From positions 1 through 50,516 of the forward strand of contig JAGCPG010000053.1 in the NCBI GenBank assembly GCA_017645245.1: a stretch of 50,516 nt of DNA. The letters run 5' to 3'. The notes beneath the pieces are model-generated. The model was not told the DNA's origin and searched no databases. It was given only the letters and a program-made list of their open reading frames with translations. Within the stretch, counting starts at the first letter, position 1; the number at the start of each line of letters is the position of its first letter. Source of the DNA: Bacteroidales bacterium. GTDB taxonomy: Bacteria > Bacteroidota > Bacteroidia > Bacteroidales > F082. The translations under genes and the position numbers were made by a program. This document shows positions 10,059-41,700 of this stretch, piece after piece.

Positions 10059-12260
10059 ATGCCCTACACAAAAGAAGAACGTGAATCCATACAGAGGGCG
10101 TATGAGTCGATGTTGGTTGACATCCGGCCCAATGTATTTGATCCTCAGAAACTTAAGGTTGTCGAGGACGCCTATCAGTTTTGCTTGGAGAAGTATGATG
10201 GCAAGTATATGATCTCGGGAAAGCCCTATCTTTTCCATCTGATCGACTTGGCTCGCATCGCTGTGTTGGAGGTCGGTCTGGGCTATATGTCGGTGGTGGC
10301 GGCGTTTCTGCATGGCATCACCTATAAGGAAAATGTCGACATGGCCTACCTGGAGGAACGCTTCGGCAAGCGAATTGCCACTGTTTTGAGAGGTTTCGAC
10401 AAAATTTCGGCGCTTCATACCGAGCGAGTGGCCTACAACTCCGACAATTTCCGCGACCTCTTCCTCTCGCTTGTCGAGGATATGCGTACGGTGTTGCTGA
10501 AAGTGGCCCACCGCGTGTACGACGTTCGCAATCAGCAGGATGTGGATGCCGACCGCCTTGGTAAGTATTTCCACGAAATCAAATACATCTACATCCCGAT
10601 AGTGCATCGTCTTGGTCTTTACAAGATCAAGGCGGAACTCGAGGAAAAGCTGATGCTGTTCGAGAACCCTGAGGTGTTTCAGGAGATCAAGTCGAAAATC
10701 GAAGCCACCGAGGAAAGCCGTAGACATATCGCGGAGCGTTTCCTGGCCCCGATTCGAAACCGCTTGGATTCGGAGATCAAAAACGGGAAATACAAGTTCA
10801 CCTATTTGATTAAATGGCGTGTCAAGTCCATCCCTTCCATCTATGCCAAGATGAAAGCCCAAAACGTGCCTTTCGAGAAGGTTTACGACCTGTTGGCCGC
10901 CCGTGTGATCATCGACTGTGCTCCAAAGGATGAAATTGGCTACTGTTGGTGCGTTTATGCCGACATCACCAACCTCTATGAACCCGTGCCTGAACGCATG
11001 CGCGACTGGATAACCGTTCCCAAAGCCTCTGGCTATGAGTCGCTTCATGCCACCGTGAAATTCGATGAAAAGGTGTTTTTCGAGGTTCAGATCCGAACAA
11101 CGCGGATGGACGAGATTGCTGAGATGGGACAAGCGGCCCACTATCTTTATAAAGGTGACAAGCAGAGTTCGGAGGATTGGCTGGTCGGGGTTAGGCAGGT
11201 GCTTGAAAACCCTGAATTGGTGTCGCTAGAGAACTCCTATAAGAAGAATTATAAGTCTGACAAAATCTTCATCTTCACGCCTGAAGGCGACCTGAAGCAG
11301 CTGCCGCAAGGCTCCACGGTGCTAGATTTCGCTTACGAGATCCATACCAAAGTGGGCGAGACCTGCAATGGCGCCAAGATCAATGGCAAAGTGGTGCCCA
11401 TCCGCCATGTGCTTACCAATGGCGACAAAGTGGAGGTCATCACCAATAAGAAGCAGTCGCCCAATGCCGATTGGCTCAACTGGGTGAATACTGAGAAGGC
11501 CAGGAACAAGATACGCCGCTTCCTAAAAGAGGAGGAACTGAAGGAGTCGGAATTGGGCAAGGGATTGCTTTTCAGAAGGTTGAAGAACTGGAAACTACCT
11601 GTGACCGAGGATGTAGTCGAGCAGTTGGTGAAAGAGTTCAAGGTGGAGAACTCCTTGCAACTGTACCATCGGATAGCCACGGAGAAGATCGACTTGGCCA
11701 ATGTCAAGCATTTCCTTGAGGCGCAACAATCAACCAAGGCCGAAAGGGAGGAACATCCTTTGGTGGAGCAGAGCGAAGCCAAAAAGGAAGATATTCAAGA
11801 CAATGGCGAGAGCCTCTCTATCGGCGAGGACATCAAGAACGTGAAGTACAAGCTGGCCAAATGCTGCAACCCCATCCCTGGCGACAAGGTCTTCGGCTTT
11901 GTGACCAACGAGGGCAACATCACCATTCACAGGGTGAACTGCCCCAACGCCAAGAGCTTGCAGGATCGTTACGGCTACCGCATCATCAAGGTGCGATGGA
12001 ACGGCATCGAGAACGGCGTGTCGCAGGCCACGATTAGGATTTACGGCAACAACATGCATGGCCTTCTCGGCAAGATCACGAAAGTGGTCTCTGAGGATAT
12101 GCAGGTGGACATGAAGAACGTGTCGTTCAACGCCGACAAGGAAGGCTATTTTGAAGGAAAAATGGTGTTGCAAATAGCTGATATTGAATCTCTTGAATTA
12201 CTTATGGATCGTATCCGCGCCATCGAGGGCATTCTGGAGGTGATCCGTATCGATGAATGA
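10059..12260 (+). CDS. RelA/SpoT-family (p)ppGpp synthetase with degenerate hydrolase domain
   Basis: A 733-residue long RSH protein. Domain order: HD hydrolase-like (about 30-190), RelA/SpoT synthetase (about 230-390), TGS (about 395-460, starting near KIFIFTPEGDLKQLP), a helical/zinc-finger-like region with AKCCNPIPGD, and a C-terminal ACT domain. Synthetase residues are well kept: RVKSIPSIYAKM, the GYESLHATV loop and EVQIRTTRMDEIAE. The hydrolase site is not: His60 and His85 remain, but the HD aspartate is Gly86, the following Glu-Asp pair is absent, and the usual LADRLHN is VAHRVYD. It is therefore predicted to be synthetase-only, like a RelA. It lies in an operon with clpS and overlaps the cotH region. 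Confidence 0.9.
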   Translation: MPYTKEERESIQRAYESMLVDIRPNVFDPQKLKVVEDAYQFCLEKYDGKYMISGKPYLFHLIDLARIAVLEVGLGYMSVVAAFLHGITYKENVDMAYLEERFGKRIATVLRGFDKISALHTERVAYNSDNFRDLFLSLVEDMRTVLLKVAHRVYDVRNQQDVDADRLGKYFHEIKYIYIPIVHRLGLYKIKAELEEKLMLFENPEVFQEIKSKIEATEESRRHIAERFLAPIRNRLDSEIKNGKYKFTYLIKWRVKSIPSIYAKMKAQNVPFEKVYDLLAARVIIDCAPKDEIGYCWCVYADITNLYEPVPERMRDWITVPKASGYESLHATVKFDEKVFFEVQIRTTRMDEIAEMGQAAHYLYKGDKQSSEDWLVGVRQVLENPELVSLENSYKKNYKSDKIFIFTPEGDLKQLPQGSTVLDFAYEIHTKVGETCNGAKINGKVVPIRHVLTNGDKVEVITNKKQSPNADWLNWVNTEKARNKIRRFLKEEELKESELGKGLLFRRLKNWKLPVTEDVVEQLVKEFKVENSLQLYHRIATEKIDLANVKHFLEAQQSTKAEREEHPLVEQSEAKKEDIQDNGESLSIGEDIKNVKYKLAKCCNPIPGDKVFGFVTNEGNITIHRVNCPNAKSLQDRYGYRIIKVRWNGIENGVSQATIRIYGNNMHGLLGKITKVVSEDMQVDMKNVSFNADKEGYFEGKMVLQIADIESLELLMDRIRAIEGILEVIRIDE

Positions 12261-12297
12261 TATTTTAGAAGTCAGAAGACAGAAGAAAGAAGTAAGA

Positions 12298-13794
12298 ATG
12301 ATGAGAAGAGTTTTTTTAAGTTTGTTATTGATTGGATTGATAGGGTGCATGTTTGCCCAAAACAATGCCATGCCCACCGTAACCATCATCACCGACGGGC
12401 CTATTGTGAATACGCCCGCCGTGCATGGCACCATCCAGGTTGACGACCATAACGGCACCGTGATCGTGATGCATGCCGGATTCAAGATCCGTGGCACTTC
12501 ATCGCAGCAATACGACAAGAAGTCGTATCGTGTGGAGCTTTGGGCGGATGAGACAGGCACTGCGATGGCCGACACCACCTTCCTCGGCATGCGCAGCGAC
12601 GACGACTGGAACTTGGAGGCTATGTGGTCTCAGCCCTTGCGTCTCCGCGACAAGGTGGCCAACGAGCTTTGGATGGAGATGTATCAGCTGCCGTATCTCG
12701 AGAACCAGCCTGATGCCTTGCCGGGCATCCGCATGGAATATGTCGACGTGTATGTCAATGGCACCTATCTGGGCGTTTATGCCTTGACCGAGCGCATGGA
12801 CCGCAAGCAGCTCCAACTGAAGAAATACAATGGCGAGCTCCGTGGCTTGCTGTTCAAAGGAAACGGCAACGGCGCCCCGACTTTCGAGAGCCTTCCCGAT
12901 TTCGACAACACCTCCGATACCTGGGACAACTACGAGTGGGTCTATCCCAACGAGAGCGACACCGTCATCGATTGGACTGCCTTGTACAATCTGACCAATT
13001 TCGTGATGAACGCCCCCGACAATGCCTTCTATTCGCAGTACGGCTTGATGTTCGACGTGAACAATGCCATTGATTATTTCCTGTTTATCAACGTGTTGAA
13101 GGCCATGGACAACATGGGACGCAATCTGTTTGTCGCAAGATACAAGAAATCGAGCGAATTTTTGTACCTGCCTTGGGACTTGGATGCCATCCTAGGCTTG
13201 GATACGGACGGTCAGCAAATGGCTGATGCCACCGGCCTGATGTCCAACGGCTTTTACGACAGACTCATGGACGATTGCCGCTCGACTGGCTTTGTGGCCT
13301 TGGCCAAAACCCGTTACAACGACCTGAGAACCACAGTGTTGAATCGCGATCATATCATGGCCTTGGTGCAAGCGCAATACAACGCTTTGGTCGAAAATGG
13401 CGCCTACGATCGTGAGCATGAGGCTTGGCCTGATTTCAACGTGGATGCGAGCCAGCTCGATTATATGAACGCTTGGCTGGATGCCAGATTCACCTATTTG
13501 GATGAGCAGATCAACGCCACCTGTGGCACTTGGGACGCTGATGAAGCCGTCGAAACCTCATGGATGGAGGTCTTCCCGAATCCCGCCAAGGATCGGATCA
13601 ATATCCGCTTCAGCGAGAATCAACCATGCGATGCGACGGTCAGCCTATACGACATGACGGGTCGTTTGGTGTATTCCATCAGCAGCGGCGATCAGGCATT
13701 GACCATTCCTACGCAGGGATTACGCAAAGGCATCTATACAGTCCTTGTCCGGCAACAAGGCAATCAGTCCACGGAACGTATCATCATTGAGTAA
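12298..13794 (+). CDS. CotH-kinase family secreted protein with T9SS type A sorting domain
   Basis: A protein of about 498 residues. The frame can open at 12253, overlapping the rel stop, but the ATGs at 12298 and 12301 begin a good signal peptide (MMRRVFLSLLLIGLIG, cleaved near FAQ). The main domain (about residues 30-405) matches CotH: FKIRGTSSQQYDKKSYRVEL near the start, a YLGVYALTERMDR segment with the family's ERxD-like motif, and LPWDLDAILG, equivalent to the metal-binding WDxD. CotH proteins are atypical protein kinases in spores; substrates in Bacteroidota are unknown. The last 80 residues (EVFPNPAKDRINI, SLYDMTGRLVY, LRKGIYTVLV) are a classic type IX secretion sorting domain. The 3' end overlaps tatC by 31 bp. 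Confidence 0.88.
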   Translation: MMRRVFLSLLLIGLIGCMFAQNNAMPTVTIITDGPIVNTPAVHGTIQVDDHNGTVIVMHAGFKIRGTSSQQYDKKSYRVELWADETGTAMADTTFLGMRSDDDWNLEAMWSQPLRLRDKVANELWMEMYQLPYLENQPDALPGIRMEYVDVYVNGTYLGVYALTERMDRKQLQLKKYNGELRGLLFKGNGNGAPTFESLPDFDNTSDTWDNYEWVYPNESDTVIDWTALYNLTNFVMNAPDNAFYSQYGLMFDVNNAIDYFLFINVLKAMDNMGRNLFVARYKKSSEFLYLPWDLDAILGLDTDGQQMADATGLMSNGFYDRLMDDCRSTGFVALAKTRYNDLRTTVLNRDHIMALVQAQYNALVENGAYDREHEAWPDFNVDASQLDYMNAWLDARFTYLDEQINATCGTWDADEAVETSWMEVFPNPAKDRINIRFSENQPCDATVSLYDMTGRLVYSISSGDQALTIPTQGLRKGIYTVLVRQQGNQSTERIIIE

Positions 13795-17320: not shown

Positions 17321-18925
17321 ATGAAAAAAGCATTGCTTACCTTGATTTGCATTGCCGCGATGCTGGCAGCAACCCCGTGTTTTATGGCTCAGGAAATCAC
17401 CATCACATTGCATCAGGAATGGAACTGGATCAGCTATCCGCGAGCCGATACGTTGGGCTTTGCCGAAGCGATGGGAACATTCACCCCAATGGAAGGCGAC
17501 ATCATAGCGGATCAAAATGATTATGCCGAATACAATGAAGGCGGATGGTATGGTACCATCGAGCAGTTTTTCCCAGGATGGGGTTATATGTATTATTCGA
17601 ACAGGACTGAGCCTGTGACATTCACATTCCAATTGCAACAGCCCGTTTCGGAAGTGACGATAACCACTTTTGATCCTTCCAAAATCACACCATCAAGTGT
17701 CACGTTGGGTAGCACCGTGACCATGGATGAGGGCAACCATGTCTTCGCCCGTGGCGTGTGTTGGAGCACGGAGCCGAATCCTGACGTCGACGACAATTCC
17801 ATGGTGGGCGATCCCGTTGCTGACAGCCTGAGCCATACGATTGTTGAGCTGACCCAAGACACCACCTATTATGTCCGTTCCTTTGTGGTGACGGATAACG
17901 GTCTTGTCTATGGAAATGAAGTGAGCTTCACCACACCCCATCTGACAGAGATCAAAATCCTTTCCTTAGGGAATTCCTATTCATCGGATGCTTTTGCATA
18001 CGTCCCGTTCATTTTGGAGAACATGCTTGAAAATGTACACGTCCAAATAGGCATCCTCAATATGGCCAGTGCAACGATACCTGTCCATGTTGCAAGTTTT
18101 GAGAATGAAGATCCTGGCTACCATTTTTATCTGTATAACGGAGGCGGTGCATGGCAATATCGCAGCCAACATACCATCCAATATGCACTCGACAATTACG
18201 AATGGGATATCATCATGCTGCAGCAGGCTAGCGGGTATGCCGCATATTGGTCATATTACCAACCCAGTTTAGATACTCTTTTAAGTCTTTTCAATAATTA
18301 TCTGGATTATCCTGTGAAGTACGGCTGGTATATGGTGCAAGCAAGACCCGCAAGGGCTATCAACGGCGAAAACTATCCTGAGGAAACGATCTTGTCCAAA
18401 TATTCAAGAATAGTTGAGAACTCACAAAGGGTAATTAATGAGACAGCATGTGAGTTTTTAGTACCTATCGGAACAGCCGTCCAAAATGCAAGAACCATCC
18501 CTGAGCTTAAGGCAATGGGTGATTATGCCGACATTGAATTGAACACTTCCGGACTTGGTTATATGTGTCAAGAGGGAATTCATCTCCAAGAGGGACTTCC
18601 TAGTCAGATAGCAGCCTATACCATGGTGCATGCCATTCTTGAACAATACGGTTGTCTTGAGAACCATTCCATTTTAGGTGAAAACACTAGGGTTACGGCA
18701 GAGTGGTTGGAAGGGAAGAAAATACCCGGAAAGAACGGTGAACCGATAGGATCTAATGACACCCTTTGTCTTATTGGTCAACAATGTGTCATCGAGGCTT
18801 TCAACAATCCTTACGAGATCACCGATATGAATGATTTCTTTAATTACTTCTTGAAATCATCACCAAACTCACTTCAACGTCGTCGTTCTCAGAAATCAGC
18901 TCAATCCAGTTGTTGTTCTCACTGA
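17321..18925 (+). CDS. Secreted DUF4886 (SGNH-like) protein with N-terminal WNW module
   Basis: A 534-residue protein. Signal peptide residues 1-23 (cleavage near FMAQ). Residues 25-104 are the tryptophan-rich module found twice at the C-termini of the two giant proteins at 32-45 kb: EWNWISYP, EAMGTF, EGDIIA, GGWYG and PGWGYMYYSN. Residues about 110-205 are a fibronectin-like domain of the GVCWSTEPNP / TTYYVRSFV type. From about 208 the DUF4886 domain begins with ILSLGNSYSSDAF, where GNSYS resembles SGNH block I; GIHLQEGLPSQ supplies a possible C-terminal His. Substrate is unknown. The last 28 codons (Ser/Arg/Gln/Cys-rich) are antisense to the next gene and look like 3' readthrough rather than domain. 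No T9SS tail is seen. Confidence 0.8.
   Translation: MKKALLTLICIAAMLAATPCFMAQEITITLHQEWNWISYPRADTLGFAEAMGTFTPMEGDIIADQNDYAEYNEGGWYGTIEQFFPGWGYMYYSNRTEPVTFTFQLQQPVSEVTITTFDPSKITPSSVTLGSTVTMDEGNHVFARGVCWSTEPNPDVDDNSMVGDPVADSLSHTIVELTQDTTYYVRSFVVTDNGLVYGNEVSFTTPHLTEIKILSLGNSYSSDAFAYVPFILENMLENVHVQIGILNMASATIPVHVASFENEDPGYHFYLYNGGGAWQYRSQHTIQYALDNYEWDIIMLQQASGYAAYWSYYQPSLDTLLSLFNNYLDYPVKYGWYMVQARPARAINGENYPEETILSKYSRIVENSQRVINETACEFLVPIGTAVQNARTIPELKAMGDYADIELNTSGLGYMCQEGIHLQEGLPSQIAAYTMVHAILEQYGCLENHSILGENTRVTAEWLEGKKIPGKNGEPIGSNDTLCLIGQQCVIEAFNNPYEITDMNDFFNYFLKSSPNSLQRRRSQKSAQSSCCSH
17393..17632 (+). repeat. Single WNW module (coding)
   Basis: Residues 25-104 of the DUF4886 protein. The conserved order is WNWIxxP, EAxGxF, EGDxxA, (Y/F)xxxGxWYG, PGxG(Y/F)MY(Y/F)SN, as in the second half of the doubled modules at 32011-32511 and 38756-39256. 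Confidence 0.7.
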
Positions 18926-31335: not shown

Positions 31336-31899
31336 TTAGGCCTCGGCGTTCTCGGCGGGAGCTTCAGCAACTGGAGCTTCCTCGGCAGGAGCCTCAGCGG
31401 CTTGGGCAGCGGCTTCCTCAGCCTTCTTGGCCTCAAGCTCAGCGAGTCTCTTCTTAGCAAGTTCTTCAGCGCGGGCTTCATTGACTTTCTTCTCGGCTTC
31501 CAAACGGGTCTTCTTCTCGCCTCTGGCTTTTTCTTCCTTGGTCTTGGCAACCTGTTCCAACTTGGCTTCCTTTTCCTTCATCCAGTTCTGGAACTTGACT
31601 TCGGCTTGCTCCTCAGTCATGGCGCCCTTCTTCACGCCCTGGAGGAGGTGATACTTCAGCATCACGCCCTTCTGGGAGAGCAGTGAACGCACGGTGTCAG
31701 TCGGAACTGCACCGACGGTGTACCAATACAAAGCTCTGTCGAACTTCAGGTTGATCTGAGCGGGCTCAGTCAAAGGGTTGTAGGTACCGATCTTTTCAAT
31801 GAATTTACCGTCACGCGGTGAACGGCCATCAGCAATTACAATGTGATAGAAAGGCTGACCCTTCTTACCATGTCTTTGCAATCTGATTTTTGCTGGCAT
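31336..31899 (-). CDS. rpsP: 30S ribosomal protein S16 with long charged C-terminal extension
   Basis: A 187-residue protein. Residues 1-80 are canonical S16 ([51 protein letters not shown]). Beyond that is an extension of about 105 residues, first a Lys/Glu-rich helix, then an Ala/Glu/Pro-rich tail ([20 protein letters not shown]). Extensions of this kind are usual in Bacteroidota S16. The gene stands alone here, without the rimM-trmD neighbours seen in many bacteria. Confidence 0.96.
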
Positions 31900-32007: not shown

Positions 32008-35000
32008 CTATCTTCGACGACCTTTTGAACTGCCGATGATCAAGGTCTTCGTCTCGTCGCTGTTGGAGAAGTACATGAAGCCTTGGCCGGGCGACAGGGT
32101 CTCCACGTCGCCGTACCATTCGCCGTCGAACTCGGTGAAGAATTCGCTGTTGGCAAACAGGTCGCCTTCTTCGGCATCGAAACCGCCAAGAGCTTCCTCA
32201 ATGGTCATCTCATAGTCGCAGGGGAACCCGATCCAGTTCCAGCCAGGGTTGATGGTGATGGCGTGATCCGCGGGATTGGCGGGCAGGCCTTCCAACTCGA
32301 TGGTGCATGGGGTTTCAACCAGAATCATGAACATCTGTTCATTGGTCACGCCTTCTTCGTCGAGGTCGCCCCACCAGTCGCCTTCGTCATTTTCCGTGAA
32401 GAGCTCAGCGGAGCTGATCTGCGTGGCGTTCTCAGCGAGAGCTTCTTCAAGCATCTGCAGCAGGACAACGGGATCATCCGCCTCAATGTAGATGCTCACC
32501 CAGTTCCAGCCTTCTTCCAAAGTCAAGGACTGTGTTACCAAAGTGGCATCTTGGGTGGTGAAGTAAACGGGCTGGCTCCATGGTGTGCCGGTGACACTGC
32601 CCGGAATGACTCCCTGCACCTCAAAACGATAATTGGTGTTGGGTCTGAGCCTCCTCAAGGTATAGGTGGTTCCTTCAATGCCTTCGATGACGGCATCCCA
32701 TTCGGTAGGTATGGTGGTCAGCTTGATGTCGTCGATATAGTAGCGGTCATCACCTGAACTGACACTGCTGTCTTTAGTGTACTTCCAAGTGAAGGTGTGT
32801 GTGCCGGCACCCACTTCAAAACTGTGTTTCACCCAGTCCTGTCCCGAGCCAGATTCCCGTAGTTTCTCTTCTCCATCAATTTCGAAGATACCAAAGTCGT
32901 AATTGGTTTCACTGGAAATAAGGCTGTAGAACTCAATTTTGCAAGTATCTTCCACGGTTTCCGTCAGCGAGATGGTTGCAGTAGAGCTATGTGTGGCAGA
33001 ATTGTTGCTTGCGATGCTGTGTAAACTACCATTGTTGGTTACGTCGTCCCAAAGGATCCAGCCAAGCTCGTCAGTTGCAAATTCATCGGGAATCCCGGTT
33101 TCAAAGTCAGTGCTGAATATGTCATCGTCGGCTGAACCGTATCTGATGTTAAAGGATTCCTGAAGTCCCGACCAGCTCAAGGTGGCCGTGGTGGCGGTGA
33201 CGGCATCGCAGCTCACATGAACGCAACGGGCGAAATCGAATGTGAAGTCGTCGAACAAAACCCATCCGACATTGTTGAAATGATCATTGGGTTCAGTGGC
33301 CAGCTTGATGGCAACGAACTTGGTGCCAGGGGGGAAGTTCATCTCATAGAAGGTCCATTCGTAATCGTCGCTGACGATCGGCTCACCCCATTCGAAGGCA
33401 TCGACTTCGCAGGTTGTGGTGGAGTAGCCTATGTAGAAGGTCTCTTCCATGACGGTGTTGTCGACATAGTAGTTTCTCGTCCAGAACGACACATAAAGGC
33501 CTTGTCCCTGATCATCCAGTTCAGGCGAGAAAACGTATTGTGGAGGGAATTGAACGGGGTCGAACACAAGCGTATAATTGCCTGTGTGAACAGCGTCGTA
33601 GCTGTTCACGGAAGGTGTTCCAGAGTATTGTGACTGGCCAAACCAGCAATCTAAATAGCCGGATTCGAAACTTTCTGTATAAGGAAGGTCCGGAGCGGCG
33701 CAAAGGGTGTTGAACGTGAAATAAACCCAATCGCTTTGTCCGTCGGAATCGCAGTCGGCTTGGATTTCCAAATTGTAATTGTTGTTTGGCTCCAAATTTT
33801 CAAGAAGATAAATGCTGTCGGTTACGCCTTCAATCACAATCCAATCTTCATCCATATTACCCATGTACCTGATATTCCATTGGTCCGCATAGTCGCTATC
33901 CCATGTCAAAAGTGCTGAGTTGCTTGTGGTAGTTGCATTGATGTTGTAGGGGGTGGGACAAGCTTCCAAGGTGGAGAACCAGACGGTAATGGCAGAGCTG
34001 TAGTCGTCTTCGCCGCAAACCACTCGCAGGTGGAAAGTATACCAAGTGCCCGGTGTGAGGGTGTCGTAACTGATGGTGTTGTTGGGCTCGGTAAGGGTGA
34101 TGTAATCTTCGTCGGAAGGAGATTCGCTACCCTCGACGCGGAGGCAACACTGATAGGTCTTTCCTTCGGTGACATCCCATGCCAACGTCGCATTATGGCG
34201 GTCAACTGAAACAAGGGTAGGAGATGCAGGTTTGACACAGTAATGGAACCGCTGGATGCGGAATTGGTTGATCGCCGTTGTCGGGGTACCGCTGCAGGTG
34301 GAGAGCTCTTGGGCGCTGAAAGCTTGGTCGTTGCGGCTGATATGGATGGCTCGGTTTGTCTCGGTTTGGAAGCTGCGGAAGCTTACACTTTCGCTTTCCT
34401 GTGCTGCGGTCTTGTCATTGACGATGACAGCCATGTTTTTCATTCCGTCATGCAGGTAGGCGTTTTCTCCGCCCAACTCGATGGTGGTCCAGTCATTGTT
34501 ATTAAAGGTGACGATGCCACTGAAGCGGGGATAGGTATTGCTGAAATCGATCCAGTCGTTAGGGCTGTCGAAGTGGTCTTTCTCTGTGGGGATCAAATAG
34601 ATGTCGAGATCTCTCTGGCCGCAAGAGGCGGTGCCGTCCTTGTAGAAGGAGATGCTCCAGATGACACCCTCATCGCCCAATTCGTCGGCGGTGTAGATCT
34701 GCTGCGTGAGCGAGTATTTGGCGCTGACGTTGGTGGGTAGATCGGTATTTGTTTCGTCGCCCGATCCAATGATCCTGCTGGGGATGAGGATGAAATCGTC
34801 AAGGAAAAGTTTAAACTTGTCATAGGAAGTATATTTGATGGCCACAAACCTGGTCCCGGCGGGGAAGTCTCTAACACAAAGCTTCCATTCGCCTGAGTGT
34901 TGGGCGGTGATCTCTTCGCCCCAGGTGAAGGCTGAAAGGTCTTTTGTGGTGGTAGAGTAACCCACACAGAAAGTCTCCGGCCAGTTGTTGCTTTCATTTG

Positions 35001-38000
35001 TGTAGTAGAATGATACGTTTAAACCATCTTCGGAGGTTTCAAATTCCGGAGAAATGAGGTATTGGGGTGGGGTATAGTTGTAATAGAACTCGAAACTCCA
35101 TGAGCCGTTTGAGGTGTGATTGGCTTCGTCGCTCCTTCTTGTATAGGATGCTTCATTCGCGATGGTCCATAAGGCCATTTCTGATTCACTCTCAAAATTG
35201 TAGGCGTAAGGCATTGGGATGGGAACGTTGAATGTCGTGCTGCTCCATCGGCTGGTGCCGTCGTTGCCGCAGTCGGCTTGCACCTGAACTTCATAAACAA
35301 TGGAATTGGGAAGGCCGGTGAAGGTGTAGGTGGGCTCGGTCAGGCCATTCACGAGAGTCCATTCCGTTTCGGAAAGTGCTTTGTACTTGAGGTTCCATTG
35401 ACTGGCTTCGCCGGCTTCCCATGTGGCCACCTTGTTGACGACACCCAGTCCAACGGGAGCGAGGCATGTAGGCTCCGTGGTGAATGATCCTGGGTAACTC
35501 CATGGGCTATTAAGCTCACTGTGCTCGCACATTGAGCGTACCTTGAAAGAATAGGTTGAATCAGGCTGAAGGCCGGTCAATGTATAGGGTTTGCTGTAGC
35601 AGGTGACAAGGTTGGATTCGTCATTGTTAAGGCAAATTTGCCAGTAGTCGGCTGTGCCGTTCTCCGTCCAGGTAACGGTGGCCGTGGTGGTCGTGGTGGC
35701 CGTACATTGCAAATTGCTGGGTTCTGGGTAATCCTTCGCCAGGCGGATTTGGCTTTTGCCAGTGATTAAAGAACCCTGACCAGGGCTTGAAGGATCAATG
35801 GCATTGTCGTATGATGAGCGACTGAGGGCTTGGTTGCCGTCGGATGCAATGACGTAGAAATACGAGGACTTCTGGTGGGCTCCGGTTTTGTCATGCACAA
35901 TGATGGCCACATTGTGCAGACCGTCATAGTTGAAGGGTTGGGATAGTTCGATGGAAGTCCAATCTTGAGCACTAAAGTTCACAGTGCTGCTGAAAACGCG
36001 GTTGCCGGTGTTGACCGTGATCCAATCGGTGTTGCTCTCGAAGGCGTTCTTGTCGGTATTTACCATGTAAATATCCAAGTTGCGGTTACATGGGCTTGTG
36101 CCATCCCTGTAGAAGTCGATGCTTCGAATGATACCGGCATCGCCCAAATCCTCAGGAGTGTAAATCTGTTGTGAATAGGTGTTTGAGTTATAGCATTTGA
36201 TAGGTAAGTAACTGTAAAGAGTATAGAGACGACCGACAGTGTACCTTGGAGCCATGTCGAAACCCAGTGGAACGCTCCATCCGCTTTTTTCGCTGCCATA
36301 GACGGCTTTCACGCGGACATAGTAGCGCTTCACGGAGCTGAGGTTGGTGAGGGTGACGGAAGGATTGCCCGATACTGACACCTGTTGGAAAGTGCCGTTG
36401 AAGAAGGAGTTGTAGTTGCCGTATTGAACCAGCCATTCCGTTTCATCGGAGGCAGGTGTCCAACTGATATTGGCGGATGAGGTCGTGATGTTTGAAACAG
36501 CAAGTTCGTTAGGCACTTCACGGATGCTGAAATTGTCCAAATAGAGATTCTTGGGCGTATAACCTTGGCCAGCCCAATCTGAGCCGCAGGCCAGGATGAC
36601 GTAGCAGGTGCCGCTATAGGGGATGTTGATACTGTAGGTGTACCAACCCGCTCCGCTCTCGGGTGGCGCGATGGCATTGGGATCGTTGTCGTAAAAACCG
36701 CCGGCGTAGCTGTAATTGCTGCTGATGTAAAGCAAAGGTTCAAGACCGTCAATGGATCCGTTTTGGCTGACGTATACTTTGACTTCGCATTTTGTGCTCG
36801 ACTCACGGTAGATGTCAAACGAGAACGCATAGTTGTCGGAAGGAAGTGTCAATACAGGAAGCCTCAACCTGCAAAAAGTTCCGTTCAATGCACCGCTAGT
36901 TTCGCCATGAGGCAGACAAAGTGCTCCGTTTTCAATACGGAAGTTACGATGGGAATTGTTGGTGTTGACATAATTCCAGCACGGACCGTATTGTGGCGTG
37001 AAATCATTGCCGTATGAGTTGAAGTCTTCTTTCCATGGGAAAGTGGCGATGCCGCAGGAGGTGGAGAAGCTTAAGGATTCACTCCATGCGGATTGCGATT
37101 CGCCAAAGTTGGAGCGTACCTTGGCCGTGTAGTTTGTCGAGCCGTTGAGTCCGGTGATCGTGAAAGGATTGCTGGTGGCCTCAATGAGGTTGTTTTCATC
37201 GTTGTTGAGGCAGATCTGCCATGCGGTGGCATCAGTGTTGTCTGTCCATTGCAAGGTGGCTGTACCGGCAGTGGTGGCGGTACACACTAAATTGCTGGGC
37301 TTTGTCTCTTTTAAGATACGAATCTGGTTCTTATAGTTATATAGGACTTGGTTCGAATAATCTATGGAACCCGTCGGGGAGAAGTTGTAGTTGTCATCAG
37401 CACCGCGGATGGCTTGTTGGGTGCTTGTTTGAAAAACCAGAAATTCTTCAGCCTGTTCCCAAGAGCCTGTGTTATCGTCTACGACGAGGAGAACGTTGCT
37501 TGTTCCATCGTATTCGAAAGGCGTATTCAAAGTAATGGTGCTCCATTCTTGGGCGGCAAAATTGACCGAGCCACTGAAAACAAGATTGTTTTCGTTGACG
37601 GGTATAAAACCGCTGATAGTGTTCAATTCAGTGTTCACCATGTAGATGTCCAAGCTTCTGCTTTTTGTGGCATAGCCTTTTTTATAAAAGTCGATGCTAA
37701 GGATGCTACCGGCACTGCCCAGTTCTTCGGGAGTGAAAATTTGTTCCGTTAGGCTATAGTTGTGATAAATGCTTGTGGGTAAATAAGAGTTGGTAACTGA
37801 GCCTGAACCAATGATGATTTTTTGGGTGGGCTCCAATTTCAGGATGTTACTCCATGCGCTTTGTTCATCGCCACAGTTGGCGCGCACCTTGGCATAGTAG
37901 ATGGTTTCGGTGGTGAGACCGGTGATTGTGTAGGGATTGCTGGTGATCTCGGTGAGGTTGGTCTCGTCGTCGTTGATGCATAGTTGCCAAGAGGGAATGT

Positions 38001-38616
38001 CACCGATTTGCGTCCAAGCGATAGTGGCGGTGCTGGGGGTGATTTCTGTGCAGTGTAAGTCTGTGGGTATGGGACAGCTGAAAGTGGCACTTGTGATGAT
38101 GACATTGTCGATGCCTACACCATAACCGTATTTGTCAATGGCCTCAAAAGCAATTTGATATGTGCTGGAGAGGTTGGGTAATAAAACCTCTGACTCAGTG
38201 GTCCATGTGGGAACATCTTCCGTATAAGCCAAGAGCAAATGCCATTCGCTGGTGCTTGAAGACCGGTAGTAAACCTTCAATTCGTCGATGTCATTCTCCC
38301 ATTTGCGCTCGATGTGCATGAACGATAGTTCGGCGAAATCGGTTGATGAAAGGTCAATTTCGGGGGTGATCAGTTTGGTGATATTGCCAACGTTTTCATG
38401 TTTGATTAAGGCATTTTGAGAGCCTTCTCCCGCTCCTGTCCCGGAATGGTGATCACCGGTACCCACCATCCAAGTGCCAGGGCCGTCGGTGGTCCAGCCG
38501 TTGGGTAGTCCGGTGAGGCCTTCAAAGTTCTCGCTGAATAGTGTGTTCTGTGCTTTTGCCGCCCACGGTACGAGGGTCCAGAAAAGCAGTAGAAAAAGTA
38601 AATGTTTAGTTTTCAT
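32008..38616 (-). CDS. Giant secreted modular protein (2202 aa): anchor-J, fibronectin III, repeated unknown modules, C-terminal WNW pair
   Basis: Signal peptide residues 1-22 (ends AAKAQ). Approximate domains: anchor-J/cleaved-adhesin-like 25-178; fibronectin III-like 181-262; unknown module A1 268-437; FnIII 438-520; anchor-J-like 520-700; FnIII 700-790; A2 790-960; two FnIII 960-1130; anchor-J 1130-1285; A3 1285-1455; two FnIII 1455-1630; anchor-J 1630-1780; an FnIII split by an anchor-J domain 1780-2030; WNW double module 2036-2202 ending in SKGRRR. The FnIII units have the recurring W.(I/L)C.N.DE.NL and L....Y..KVR..C patterns. It is most likely cell-surface or released. There is no canonical T9SS type A or B tail; the WNW pair occupies that place. 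A ligand cannot be inferred. Confidence 0.85.
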   Translation of the reverse strand: MKTKHLLFLLLFWTLVPWAAKAQNTLFSENFEGLTGLPNGWTTDGPGTWMVGTGDHHSGTGAGEGSQNALIKHENVGNITKLITPEIDLSSTDFAELSFMHIERKWENDIDELKVYYRSSSTSEWHLLLAYTEDVPTWTTESEVLLPNLSSTYQIAFEAIDKYGYGVGIDNVIITSATFSCPIPTDLHCTEITPSTATIAWTQIGDIPSWQLCINDDETNLTEITSNPYTITGLTTETIYYAKVRANCGDEQSAWSNILKLEPTQKIIIGSGSVTNSYLPTSIYHNYSLTEQIFTPEELGSAGSILSIDFYKKGYATKSRSLDIYMVNTELNTISGFIPVNENNLVFSGSVNFAAQEWSTITLNTPFEYDGTSNVLLVVDDNTGSWEQAEEFLVFQTSTQQAIRGADDNYNFSPTGSIDYSNQVLYNYKNQIRILKETKPSNLVCTATTAGTATLQWTDNTDATAWQICLNNDENNLIEATSNPFTITGLNGSTNYTAKVRSNFGESQSAWSESLSFSTSCGIATFPWKEDFNSYGNDFTPQYGPCWNYVNTNNSHRNFRIENGALCLPHGETSGALNGTFCRLRLPVLTLPSDNYAFSFDIYRESSTKCEVKVYVSQNGSIDGLEPLLYISSNYSYAGGFYDNDPNAIAPPESGAGWYTYSINIPYSGTCYVILACGSDWAGQGYTPKNLYLDNFSIREVPNELAVSNITTSSANISWTPASDETEWLVQYGNYNSFFNGTFQQVSVSGNPSVTLTNLSSVKRYYVRVKAVYGSEKSGWSVPLGFDMAPRYTVGRLYTLYSYLPIKCYNSNTYSQQIYTPEDLGDAGIIRSIDFYRDGTSPCNRNLDIYMVNTDKNAFESNTDWITVNTGNRVFSSTVNFSAQDWTSIELSQPFNYDGLHNVAIIVHDKTGAHQKSSYFYVIASDGNQALSRSSYDNAIDPSSPGQGSLITGKSQIRLAKDYPEPSNLQCTATTTTTATVTWTENGTADYWQICLNNDESNLVTCYSKPYTLTGLQPDSTYSFKVRSMCEHSELNSPWSYPGSFTTEPTCLAPVGLGVVNKVATWEAGEASQWNLKYKALSETEWTLVNGLTEPTYTFTGLPNSIVYEVQVQADCGNDGTSRWSSTTFNVPIPMPYAYNFESESEMALWTIANEASYTRRSDEANHTSNGSWSFEFYYNYTPPQYLISPEFETSEDGLNVSFYYTNESNNWPETFCVGYSTTTKDLSAFTWGEEITAQHSGEWKLCVRDFPAGTRFVAIKYTSYDKFKLFLDDFILIPSRIIGSGDETNTDLPTNVSAKYSLTQQIYTADELGDEGVIWSISFYKDGTASCGQRDLDIYLIPTEKDHFDSPNDWIDFSNTYPRFSGIVTFNNNDWTTIELGGENAYLHDGMKNMAVIVNDKTAAQESESVSFRSFQTETNRAIHISRNDQAFSAQELSTCSGTPTTAINQFRIQRFHYCVKPASPTLVSVDRHNATLAWDVTEGKTYQCCLRVEGSESPSDEDYITLTEPNNTISYDTLTPGTWYTFHLRVVCGEDDYSSAITVWFSTLEACPTPYNINATTTSNSALLTWDSDYADQWNIRYMGNMDEDWIVIEGVTDSIYLLENLEPNNNYNLEIQADCDSDGQSDWVYFTFNTLCAAPDLPYTESFESGYLDCWFGQSQYSGTPSVNSYDAVHTGNYTLVFDPVQFPPQYVFSPELDDQGQGLYVSFWTRNYYVDNTVMEETFYIGYSTTTCEVDAFEWGEPIVSDDYEWTFYEMNFPPGTKFVAIKLATEPNDHFNNVGWVLFDDFTFDFARCVHVSCDAVTATTATLSWSGLQESFNIRYGSADDDIFSTDFETGIPDEFATDELGWILWDDVTNNGSLHSIASNNSATHSSTATISLTETVEDTCKIEFYSLISSETNYDFGIFEIDGEEKLRESGSGQDWVKHSFEVGAGTHTFTWKYTKDSSVSSGDDRYYIDDIKLTTIPTEWDAVIEGIEGTTYTLRRLRPNTNYRFEVQGVIPGSVTGTPWSQPVYFTTQDATLVTQSLTLEEGWNWVSIYIEADDPVVLLQMLEEALAENATQISSAELFTENDEGDWWGDLDEEGVTNEQMFMILVETPCTIELEGLPANPADHAITINPGWNWIGFPCDYEMTIEEALGGFDAEEGDLFANSEFFTEFDGEWYGDVETLSPGQGFMYFSNSDETKTLIIGSSKGRRR
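32011..32511 (-). repeat. Double WNW module, C-terminus of the 2202-residue protein
   Basis: The last 167 codons. Half 1 begins GWNWVSIYIE and contains FTENDEGDWWGDLDEEG; half 2 begins GWNWIGFPCD and contains FTEFDGEWYGD and PGQGFMYFSN. The region is strongly similar in DNA to 38756-39256, with long runs differing only at scattered, mostly third, positions. Confidence 0.8.
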
Positions 38617-38665
38617 TTATTTAAAGAGTTAAGAGTGAATTTTCTTAAAAGTTTTTTAACGGACG

Positions 38666-38695
38666 CAAAAGTATGGAAAAAAAGGTCTTTGTCAA
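38666..38695 (-). promoter_or_regulatory. Promoter of the 2202-residue protein gene
   Basis: The minus strand has TACTTTTG (complement of 38666-38673) and TTG (complement of 38693-38695), 19 nt apart, 49 bp upstream of the ATG at 38616. Confidence 0.6.
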
Positions 38696-38696
38696 T

Positions 38697-38729
38697 AAAA
38701 AAAATCCGCCAAATATTTGACGGATTTTT
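38697..38729 (-). terminator. Rho-independent terminator of the 2031-residue protein gene
   Basis: Arms AATCCGCCAA (38703-38712) and TTGACGGATT (38717-38726) pair with one C-A mismatch around ATAT. On the minus strand the hairpin ends in eight T residues, 24 bp after the stop at 38753. The same 10-nt arms recur at 45143-45168. Confidence 0.85.
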
Positions 38730-38752
38730 ATTCAATGATGAAAGCGGAAACC

Positions 38753-41700
38753 TTACTTCTTTCTAGCGCCTTTCGAACTGCCAATGATCAAGGTCTTCAG
38801 CTCGTCGCTGTTGGAGAAGTACATGAAGCCTTGGCCTGGAATCAGGATGGCCACGTCGCCGTACCACTCACCGTCGAACTCGGTGAAGTCTTCGCTGTTG
38901 GCGAACACGTCTCCCTCCTCGGCGTTGAAACTGCCGAGGGCTTCCTCAATGGTCATCTCGTGGTCGCAGGGGAATCCGATCCAGTTCCAGCCTGGGTTGA
39001 TGGTGATGGGGTGGCTGGCAGGATTGGCGGTATTGCCTTGTAGCTCGATGGTGCAGGGCGTTTCAACTAGGATCATATACATCTGTTCATTGGTCAGGCC
39101 TTCCTCGTCGAGGTCGCCCCACCAGTCGCCTTCGTCATTCTCGGTGAAGAGCTCGGCGGAGCTGATTTGTGTGGCGTTCTCACCGAGGGCTGATTCCAGC
39201 GATTGAAGCAGGTCGATGGGGTTGCCTTCAACATAGAGGCTCACCCAGTTCCAGCCTGTTGACAAGGCAAGGGTCTGGGTCACCGTGCTTGCCCCTTCAG
39301 TCACGAAGAACACCGACTCGCTCACTTTGTTGGGGTCGCAGTCGGGATAGACGTGGACTTCGTATGAGGTTTCGGGGCTGAGACCGGCAAGGGTGGTGCT
39401 CACTTGGTAGGCGTTGCCTGCCACGGTAACGGTCTGCCATGCGCCGGCGGGGGTGTCAAGGCCTACCATGATGTTATCGATGTAAAGCATGTGCAAGTTG
39501 GAGGTGTATTTCCAGCAGATGTACTTCGTGCCGGCGGGAATGGGTTCGCTGTAGGTGAAATGCTGTCCTGAGGAAACGGTGATTTCGTCGCCGAAGGTGA
39601 ACGAATCGGTGGCGTTGTCTGTGGAACTGAAGCCTATTTTGAAAGCCTCAGGATCGGTCGAATTCACCGGAATATAATACTCGAATTCCAGTTTCATTCC
39701 ATCGGAAATGCCAATCAGTTCGGGTGAGATGAGATATTGGGCAGTATGGTAGTTATTGAATTGGAAAACAGCAATTCCTTCCCCGTAGGTCAAAATGCCA
39801 GTGGTGCTATTACAATTGCGAAGCGTCCAGTTGCCGATGCCGTTCTCAAAGCCTTCGCTGAAGACGATGCTTGCTTCCCTGTATTCCATCGTGTAGCTTT
39901 CCTCTTCTGGAACGCCCGTCCAGCTGAGGTCGGCGGTGGTTGCACCGACGTAGCTGACGGTGAGGTTTTCAGGTCTCGGGCAGTCTTCAATCGTGTTGAA
40001 GAACAGTGTTTCGCTCACCAATTCGGGATCGCAGTCGGGATAGACATAGACTTCGTATGAGGTGGCTGGCATGAGGTCGGTGAGGGTGGTGCTCACTTCG
40101 TCGGTGTTACCTTCCACGGTAACGGTCTGCCATTGAGAATCCACGCCTATCGAAATGTCATCGAGGTATAGGAACCAATCTCCTGTGGTGAAATATTTAA
40201 AGCAGATATACTTCGTTCCAGCAGGAATTGATCCACTGTAGAGGTGCCATTGGGCATCGGAGACAGTGATTTCATCGCCGAAGGTGAACGATTCTATCAC
40301 GTTGTCCGTCGAGCTGAAGCCCACTTGGAAGGTCTCAGGCACACCCTCGCCCCAGTTCTTATAATAGAATTCCAACTTCAGTCCCTCGGTAATGTCTGTC
40401 AGTTCAGGAGAGAAGAGGTATTGTAGACGCTTGCTGTGGTGCTCGAACATGAACCCGTAACTGCCTGAATGGGCAGCGTCGGTGCCAACACCTGTAAAAG
40501 ACCATTCTTGGGCGATCGTCCAGTCGCCGAGGCCGTTTTCAAAGCCTTCGGTGAAGACATTGCCTCTTGCCTTGTAATTCACCGTGTAGCTGTCCATATA
40601 ACGCGAGGCACTCCAACTGAGTTCCGCTGTGGTTGGGCTGACGTAGTCGAGGGAGAAGTTGGTGGGGGTTTGGCATAATTCTGGAGTTGTGAAGCTCACC
40701 GTCTCGCTCACTAATTCAGGATCGCAGTCGGGATAGACGAAGGCTTCGTATTCGGTTTCGGGCGTGAGGTCTTTGAGAATTTTGCTCACTTCGGTAGTGT
40801 TGCCAACCACGGTAGCGGTCTGCCAAGCGCTGGCAGGGACTTCCACTCCTACTACCACGATGTCATCAATGTAAAGATAGTATTGGTCGTTGGAGTTGAG
40901 TTTCCAGCAGATGTATTTTGTGCCTGCGGGAATCGTCTTGCTGTAGAGATGCCACTGTTCATCGGAAACATTAATCTCGCTGCCGAAGGTGAACGATGCT
41001 GTCTCGTTGTCTGTCACGCTGAAACCCACTTGGAAAGTCTCTGGATAAAGATAACTCATGTTCTTGTAATAGAATTCCAGCTTCGCCCATTCGCCAACGC
41101 CAGTCAGTTCGGGTGAGATGAGGTATTGCGGAGGAGTGGTGTTGTAACAGAATTGGAATCCGGCATTGCCCGAATGGACACCATTGGAGGAAACACCTGT
41201 GTAACTGTCGCAATCGCGCATTGTCCAGTCGCCTAGGCCATTTTCAAAGCCTTCGTTGAAGATGACATCCAAGGGTTGTGCTGTCCTGTAGTTCACCGTG
41301 TAGCTGTCCGTTGGGATCAAGGCGGTCCATCCAAGTTTGGCAGTGGTTGCGGTGAGGTTGCTCACAGTGAGGTTGACTGGAGTCGGGCAGGTAAAAAGGT
41401 CGATGCTCACGTTGTCGATGGCCGCGGGAGGGTTGGCTCCAGCATTGTTGTCGTTGCACCATGCAAACACCATCATGTATCTGCCTTCCATGGCAATCTC
41501 AATTTCTTGGAGCATGGTTTGCCAGTCGTTTGTCATGTTGAGTTGCGAGCCTCCGTCAAGGGCTATCCAGCCTTCTGGAAGAACATTGTAATTAAAGCCC
41601 GAAGGCAGTTCTGTGCCAGCTTCCAAACTTAGGGTGTCAGGGATCAGGGCGACTCTCAGGAAGTCGTAGTTGCTTTCTCCATTTGCTTCCCAGTCGTAGG

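Follow-up and report, generated by a model that had tools for sequence, protein, structure and literature searches.

We analyzed a 50,516-nucleotide contig of a Bacteroidales bacterium (JAGCPG010000053.1, assembly GCA_017645245.1; hereafter, the window), in which two adjacent genes for giant proteins, P0001 and P0002, both end in a doubled module whose halves start with the motif WNW. We consider it slightly probable that this terminal doubled module does the task of the C-terminal domain (CTD) of type IX secretion system (T9SS) cargo, i.e., getting proteins to the cell surface or keeping them there, by direct recognition or by docking. Two observations in particular support this proposal. Terminal modules and CTDs are mutually exclusive in C25 and C10 peptidases, with one exception (L227), and modules undergo concerted evolution within genomes. 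A role in sorting or display is favored because the distributions of module and CTD exclude each other. The shared place in the chain and the likeness of the copies within each genome may point to a second kind of surface tag on large secreted proteins of rumen-type Bacteroidales.

The exclusion was counted on peptidases that occur with either ending. For C25, 58 open reading frames (ORFs; of 62 matches) from five genomes were classed: 42 have a type A CTD, 12 a terminal module and 3 neither, for a total of 57 complete ORFs, and one is cut. Module and CTD exclude each other here with a Fisher probability of 6e-10, or 6e-9 when the both-bearing L227, which lies outside this census, is added. 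Among the three with neither, L270 has a CTD-like end, the CTD of L293 is broken off near the end, and L285 is short. For C10, 40 ORFs (of 43 matches) from four genomes gave 33 with a type A CTD, 3 with a terminal module, 2 with neither and 2 cut; the two with neither (L335 and L336) have an odd tail that looks, by eye, related to type A. In the genome of the window (G000), 10 of the 11 C10 matches share an ORF with a match to the type A model TIGR04183, and the remaining one, near a contig end, lacks it. Swaps of the ending are also seen between related cargoes. L257, which has the module followed by an ECRG domain (described below) and a CTD, is 73% identical over 1258 amino acids of cargo to L267, which ends at the module, and further swaps separate L227 from L268 (62% over 1702 amino acids) and L249 from L225 (54% over 1122 amino acids).

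The concerted evolution is apparent in a tree of 85 modules, where copies cluster by genome and not by cargo, and where the state, terminal or internal, changes at least 4 times. Of 76 modules, 58 have their nearest relative within their own genome (mean of 3.9 and maximum of 11 after shuffling), against just 4 of 64 cargoes. As a control, the same count on the C25 and C10 sets gave 11 of 15 for terminal modules (3.1 by chance), 1 of 15 for the catalytic parts of the terminal-module proteins, and 14 of 75 for type A CTDs (14.8 by chance). When cargoes are paired across genomes, the cargo is more alike than the module in 27 of 36 pairs; the exceptions include L213 and L214, whose modules are identical. 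The cargoes of L209 and L224 are 98% identical over 1539 amino acids and their modules 60%, with the drop beginning about 40 residues inside the module, and these modules are 90 or 87% identical to another in their own genome. Between L213 and L246, identity falls at the module start. Copying at the DNA level is evident in G000, where the unrelated cargo genes on contigs C129 and C75 have 140 identical nucleotides of module DNA in common, with divergence near the module start.

P0001 (32008-38616, reverse strand; 2202 amino acids) has a signal peptide, fn3, MAM and cleaved-adhesin-like domains, and the module at its end. P0002 (38753-44848, reverse strand; 2031 amino acids) has a signal peptide, fn3 domains, choice-of-anchor J/cleaved adhesin repeats, and again the module. 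The original prediction that both end in a doubled module of about 167 residues followed by a basic tail is borne out. In P0001, the module covers residues 2027-2193, with the first half at residues 2027-2116 (32269-32538, reverse strand), the second at residues 2117-2193 (32038-32268, reverse strand), and a short basic tail ending in SKGRRR (32011-32037, reverse strand). In P0002, the halves lie at 39014-39283 and 38777-39013 and the basic tail SKGARKK at 38756-38776, all on the reverse strand; module and tail together make 176 residues, encoded by 38756-39283 (reverse strand), and the structural model shows disorder over the final five residues (predicted local distance difference test [pLDDT] below 50). 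The two halves are homologous and chance likeness is ruled out: their profiles of 52 rows align in hhalign with a probability of 98.7 (E of 4.5e-16), and a phmmer query with the first half retrieves copies of the second (best c-Evalue of 3e-8). The doubled modules of P0001 and P0002 are 83% identical in both protein and DNA, against just 38% in protein and 51% in DNA over the 100 residues upstream, and fourfold degenerate sites match at 33 of 53 positions in the modules versus 7 of 19 upstream. The five copies first noticed are accounted for by these four halves and a single half of the second-half type at 17387-17632 (forward strand), directly after the signal peptide of the DUF4886 protein P0007 (17321-18925), so that even within the window the module is not restricted to C termini. 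An ordinary T9SS type A sorting domain stands in contrast nearby, at 13570-13791 (forward strand) in the ORF 12253-13794. Adjoining the giant genes, positions 31336-31899 encode ribosomal protein S16 with a long C-terminal extension rich in alanine and glutamate.

No Pfam or NCBIfam family explains the module (52 members, E ≤ 0.1; scattered matches are unrelated), in line with the earlier view that it lacks a named domain. We found no description of it in the literature, and four motif strings were not found in 5.39 million open papers, the subscription literature being outside the search. Solved structures searched by sequence gave one chance match to an antibody (E of 0.45), and 25 pattern matches in viral contigs included no relative of the module. 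The AlphaFold2 model of the doubled module is confident (pLDDT of 95.2). With this model, Foldseek found no match in the PDB at E ≤ 0.001, and a check for the Ig-like seven-strand fold found no CTD structure among the 50 listed rows of the Foldseek and VIA results, although the module may still have such a fold.

The module is frequent among close relatives of the window's genome. It was found in 62 of 75 genomes of the genus (as many as 24 matches in a single genome), in 87 of 149 genomes sampled from the family (G000 included), and in 15 of 294 genomes sampled from the class besides G000. Among named genomes, 70 loci were detected, the majority in Bacteroidales or Bacteroidia metagenome-assembled genomes (MAGs), many from ruminants; these loci overlap with the other sampled genomes, so the counts are not independent. 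G000 itself (2.44 Mb in 145 contigs) has 16 matches (E ≤ 10). They include six doubled terminal copies (P0001, P0002, and one each on contigs C21, C116, C139 and C63), one copy on C95 that is internal and precedes a type A CTD, a broken copy on C128 that gives two matches, and a weak match on C29 that sits in a related domain, GWNL. Four contigs (C15, C68, C75 and C129) break off within a module copy, which looks as though the assembly had been disrupted by modules that are nearly identical.

Two architectures are found. The 80 full ORFs taken from the genus are the top of the match list, which favors the best-scoring copies; 49 of them end at the module, 27 reach a stop with a type-A-like end, and the other 4 run off their contig. 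Among the named-genome loci, 18 of 70 were judged terminal from their ends. In the sampled family, where CTDs were scored, internal copies are followed by an unnamed ECRG domain of about 115 residues (motif AFVGxECRG) and then by a T9SS type A CTD. In other families, 20 of the 22 loci listed continue for at least 323 residues beyond the module start, and 2 are uninterpretable. In 40 of 49 terminal copies, 21-27 residues separate the first position of the motif PGxGYxY from the stop, and the last residue is K or R in 37 of 49. By our own rule of regular expression and hydropathy, used in place of SignalP, terminal ORFs have a type I signal peptide in 43 of 49 cases and never a lipoprotein one; none was found in 3, and the start is cut in 3, so that 43 of 46 ORFs with an uncut start have a Sec signal peptide. 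The non-terminal ORFs have a type I signal peptide in 26 of 31 cases, and one is lipoprotein-like. The original prediction had placed the module where sorting domains sit. This holds for P0001 and P0002, but the module is internal in other families, can precede a type A CTD in the sampled family, and occurs as a single half near the N terminus in two G000 proteins. The outcome of the profile search and position check is mixed: no described domain matched and the bias to the C-terminal region is strong, but the strictly terminal form is found just in the window's genus and close named MAGs. The two proteins with N-terminal single halves, P0007 and the Lcl_C/FISUMP-like L024:6687-8852 on C78, both have the half immediately after the signal peptide and are otherwise unlike each other. 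We also noticed an array of module genes (G403:C9:66911-88648), in which one member retains the CTD and near neighbors end at the module; in several of these genes, the profile match contains in-frame stops.

These data lead us to suggest that the doubled WNW module is a C-terminal display or sorting cassette of T9SS cargo, able to replace the CTD. In most module-bearing Bacteroidia, the module lies inside the chain, followed in the sampled family by the ECRG domain and the type A CTD. In the window's genus, the chain would have come to end at the module at least twice: when 13 outgroup modules are added to the tree, the terminal state arose at least 2 times, most terminal modules falling into two groups of 38 and 16 rows and one row standing alone, although this is a quick tree whose deep branches are unstarred. 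The terminal form may then replace the CTD in peptidases, both gingipain-like (C25) and streptopain-like (C10), and in adhesin-like giants, P0001 and P0002 among them. It could bring cargo to the cell surface because the T9SS reads the module directly or, alternatively, by docking, either with a partner that has a CTD or with other proteins bearing the module. Homogenization would reflect the copying of a cassette obliged to fit a genome-specific partner. A bolder version is tentative and, in our estimate, improbable: terminal doubled modules may form a fourth, genome-tuned class of T9SS signal, in which the cassette of incoming cargo is overwritten by the resident version, giving one matched set of tag and receptor per species.

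Several results weigh against the module replacing the CTD. L227, a C25 peptidase by homology, bears both together, and the internal form always bears a CTD, so that the module alone cannot abolish the need for it there. Single half modules occur near N termini. Three of the 12 terminal copies on C25 peptidases (L273, L307 and L312) have an in-frame stop within the stretch matched by the profile, so that some ends may be damaged. Homogenization could be neutral gene conversion. The window's genome does encode SprA, PorV and PorP, and 109 type A CTDs above the cutoff (of 115 matches), which speaks for the proposal; genome G416 bears the module and has no detected SprA. Co-occurrence with SprA itself says little, because the T9SS is nearly universal in the sample: SprA was found in 145 of 149 genomes sampled from the family and in 286 of the 295 sampled from the class, among them all 15 of the other module-bearing ones. 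A dedicated extra shuttle can be rejected, since the PorV family has 3-5 matches per genome in 34 of 34 genomes, with no overall difference between terminal-bearing and internal-only ones (those with no terminal copy among the copies fetched). PorP/SprF-like genes number one in most of the 34 genomes and two in 6, both groups being alike. Finally, the module does not resemble type A CTDs in sequence. Hhalign gave a probability of 0.2 and 1.1% against type A domains of the same genomes, and homology with them is rejected; on a matrix of type A tails, terminal tails score -9.0 versus +25.1 for real ones; and no extra constraint was found at terminal ends, with an entropy over the last 25 columns of 1.64 in terminal versus 1.54 in internal copies.

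Some observations on the secretion genes stand apart from this. A second strong PorV paralogue is present in 4 of 17 terminal-bearing genomes (G386, G394, G408 and G420) versus 1 of 17 internal-only ones (G438), and is not general. One PorV-family match (G394:C10:88002-88934) lies in a 24510-codon open frame, which is either an artifact or a most unusual gene. In G000 (C30:13133-20365) and many relatives in the genus, the SprA match is split (2-1574 and about 1540-2318) within a longer ORF, pointing to an insertion in this translocon protein near model position 1574. The split occurs, by eye, in both kinds of genome, and a tie to terminal modules was rejected.

The rival explanations for the terminal form overlap with our general proposal. 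The module may be a noncanonical export signal, read by the translocon or a shuttle, which would make it an additional class of CTD next to A, B and C; we regard this as possible without being probable. Its exclusion of type A in both peptidase families and its fixed distance from motif to stop are consistent with this. So is a glycine-aromatic turn, which 37 of 49 terminal copies have 19-23 residues before their end, since 55 of 56 type A tails have their GxY motif at a distance of 21-23. Export is reported to need no more of the HBP35 CTD than its final 22 residues (PMC10202324). Terminal tails do score above the window's other C termini (p of 0.001) and above shuffles on the type A tail matrix, but they do not exceed internal copies (p of 0.08), so that mimicry of the last 22 type A residues is weak; the missing constraint at terminal ends and the lack of a general shuttle expansion also speak against such a signal. 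Alternatively, the module could be a docking or self-association domain, its terminal cargo being exported with, or held at the surface by, CTD-bearing partners, such as neighboring ECRG-GWNL-CTD proteins or other module proteins. We think this unlikely as well. In its favor, some module genes (C139 and C63 of G000) are followed directly by genes with ECRG and GWNL domains, which also have a CTD whenever the ORF is whole, the internal form fuses the module to the ECRG domain, and genome-specific modules would suit a genome-specific partner. Secreted proteins with ECRG and/or GWNLVGNP-type domains adjoin module genes at L022:3514-5472 (C139), L027:5090-6724 (C63) and L023:434-2326 (C95); they have a weak type A CTD and otherwise no meaningful Pfam match. 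The GWNL domain aligns with the module at a borderline 72-82% hhalign probability over 22 columns and is possibly a distant relative, judging by this alignment. But 63 of 95 terminal genes have no ECRG/GWNL neighbor, and neither does the window pair. Among module genes with enough sequence, the partner gene is no more frequent next to terminal modules, where it lies directly downstream in 14 of 95 cases, than next to internal ones, with 15 of 68 (overlapping, hence not independent, loci). A partner gene specific to terminal modules is thus rejected.

It is rather unlikely, in our view, that the terminal form is a by-product, with the CTD truncated away, cargo left in the periplasm or released by lysis, and the likeness within genomes arising from neutral gene conversion. 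The DNA-level copying evident in the C129/C75 stretch and in the fourfold degenerate sites of the window pair would fit, as would the in-frame stops in some listed copies. However, terminal copies are numerous, as a rule intact, and end at a fixed place; C25 proteins almost never lose the CTD without having the module, which 12 of the 15 CTD-less ones bear; and no in-frame remnant of the post-module region was found behind the module, although at nine loci a separate ORF further downstream encodes ECRG domains. Also unlikely, we believe, is a ligand-binding domain of secreted proteins, unrelated to export and with a fold like a double-stranded beta-helix. In the structural model, the second half seems weakly similar in topology to cupin and double-stranded beta-helix folds, but these gave neither a Foldseek match at E ≤ 0.001 nor a sequence match. 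A role in oligomerization would also be compatible with the data.

If the module replaces the CTD, predictions of T9SS secretomes from type A, B or C signals miss cargo of rumen-type Bacteroidales, including peptidases and giant adhesins. A cassette at the export site that evolves in concert beside CTDs that do not is unusual. It also offers a route to the receptor, by looking for what covaries with the module between genomes.

The known T9SS signals offer the closest comparison. The type C CTD of ChiA is a C-terminal signal of about 100 residues unlike types A and B (PMC10202324), and in being neither A nor B it resembles the module. None of the 52 modules matches a type B or type C family in Pfam or NCBIfam at E ≤ 0.1. 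NCBIfam includes a type C model. The type B CTD is a second signal class with a cognate PorP/SprF shuttle, often on large adhesins (PMC12618676), and the module may be like it in being a class besides type A with large adhesin cargo. The module differs in having no match to a type B family and in the alike counts of PorP/SprF-like genes in both genome groups. Type A features had been said to be missing, and indeed TIGR04183 and PF18962 match neither P0001 nor P0002 up to an E of 1, nor any of the 52 modules, in agreement with the hhalign and tail-matrix results. Like the module, type A is C-terminal on cargo with Sec signals, e.g., C25 and C10 peptidases and adhesins, and has its glycine-aromatic turn at a similar distance from the end. 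Unlike type A, the module is twice as long, doubled, without profile kinship, and homogenized within each genome, which type A CTDs are not.

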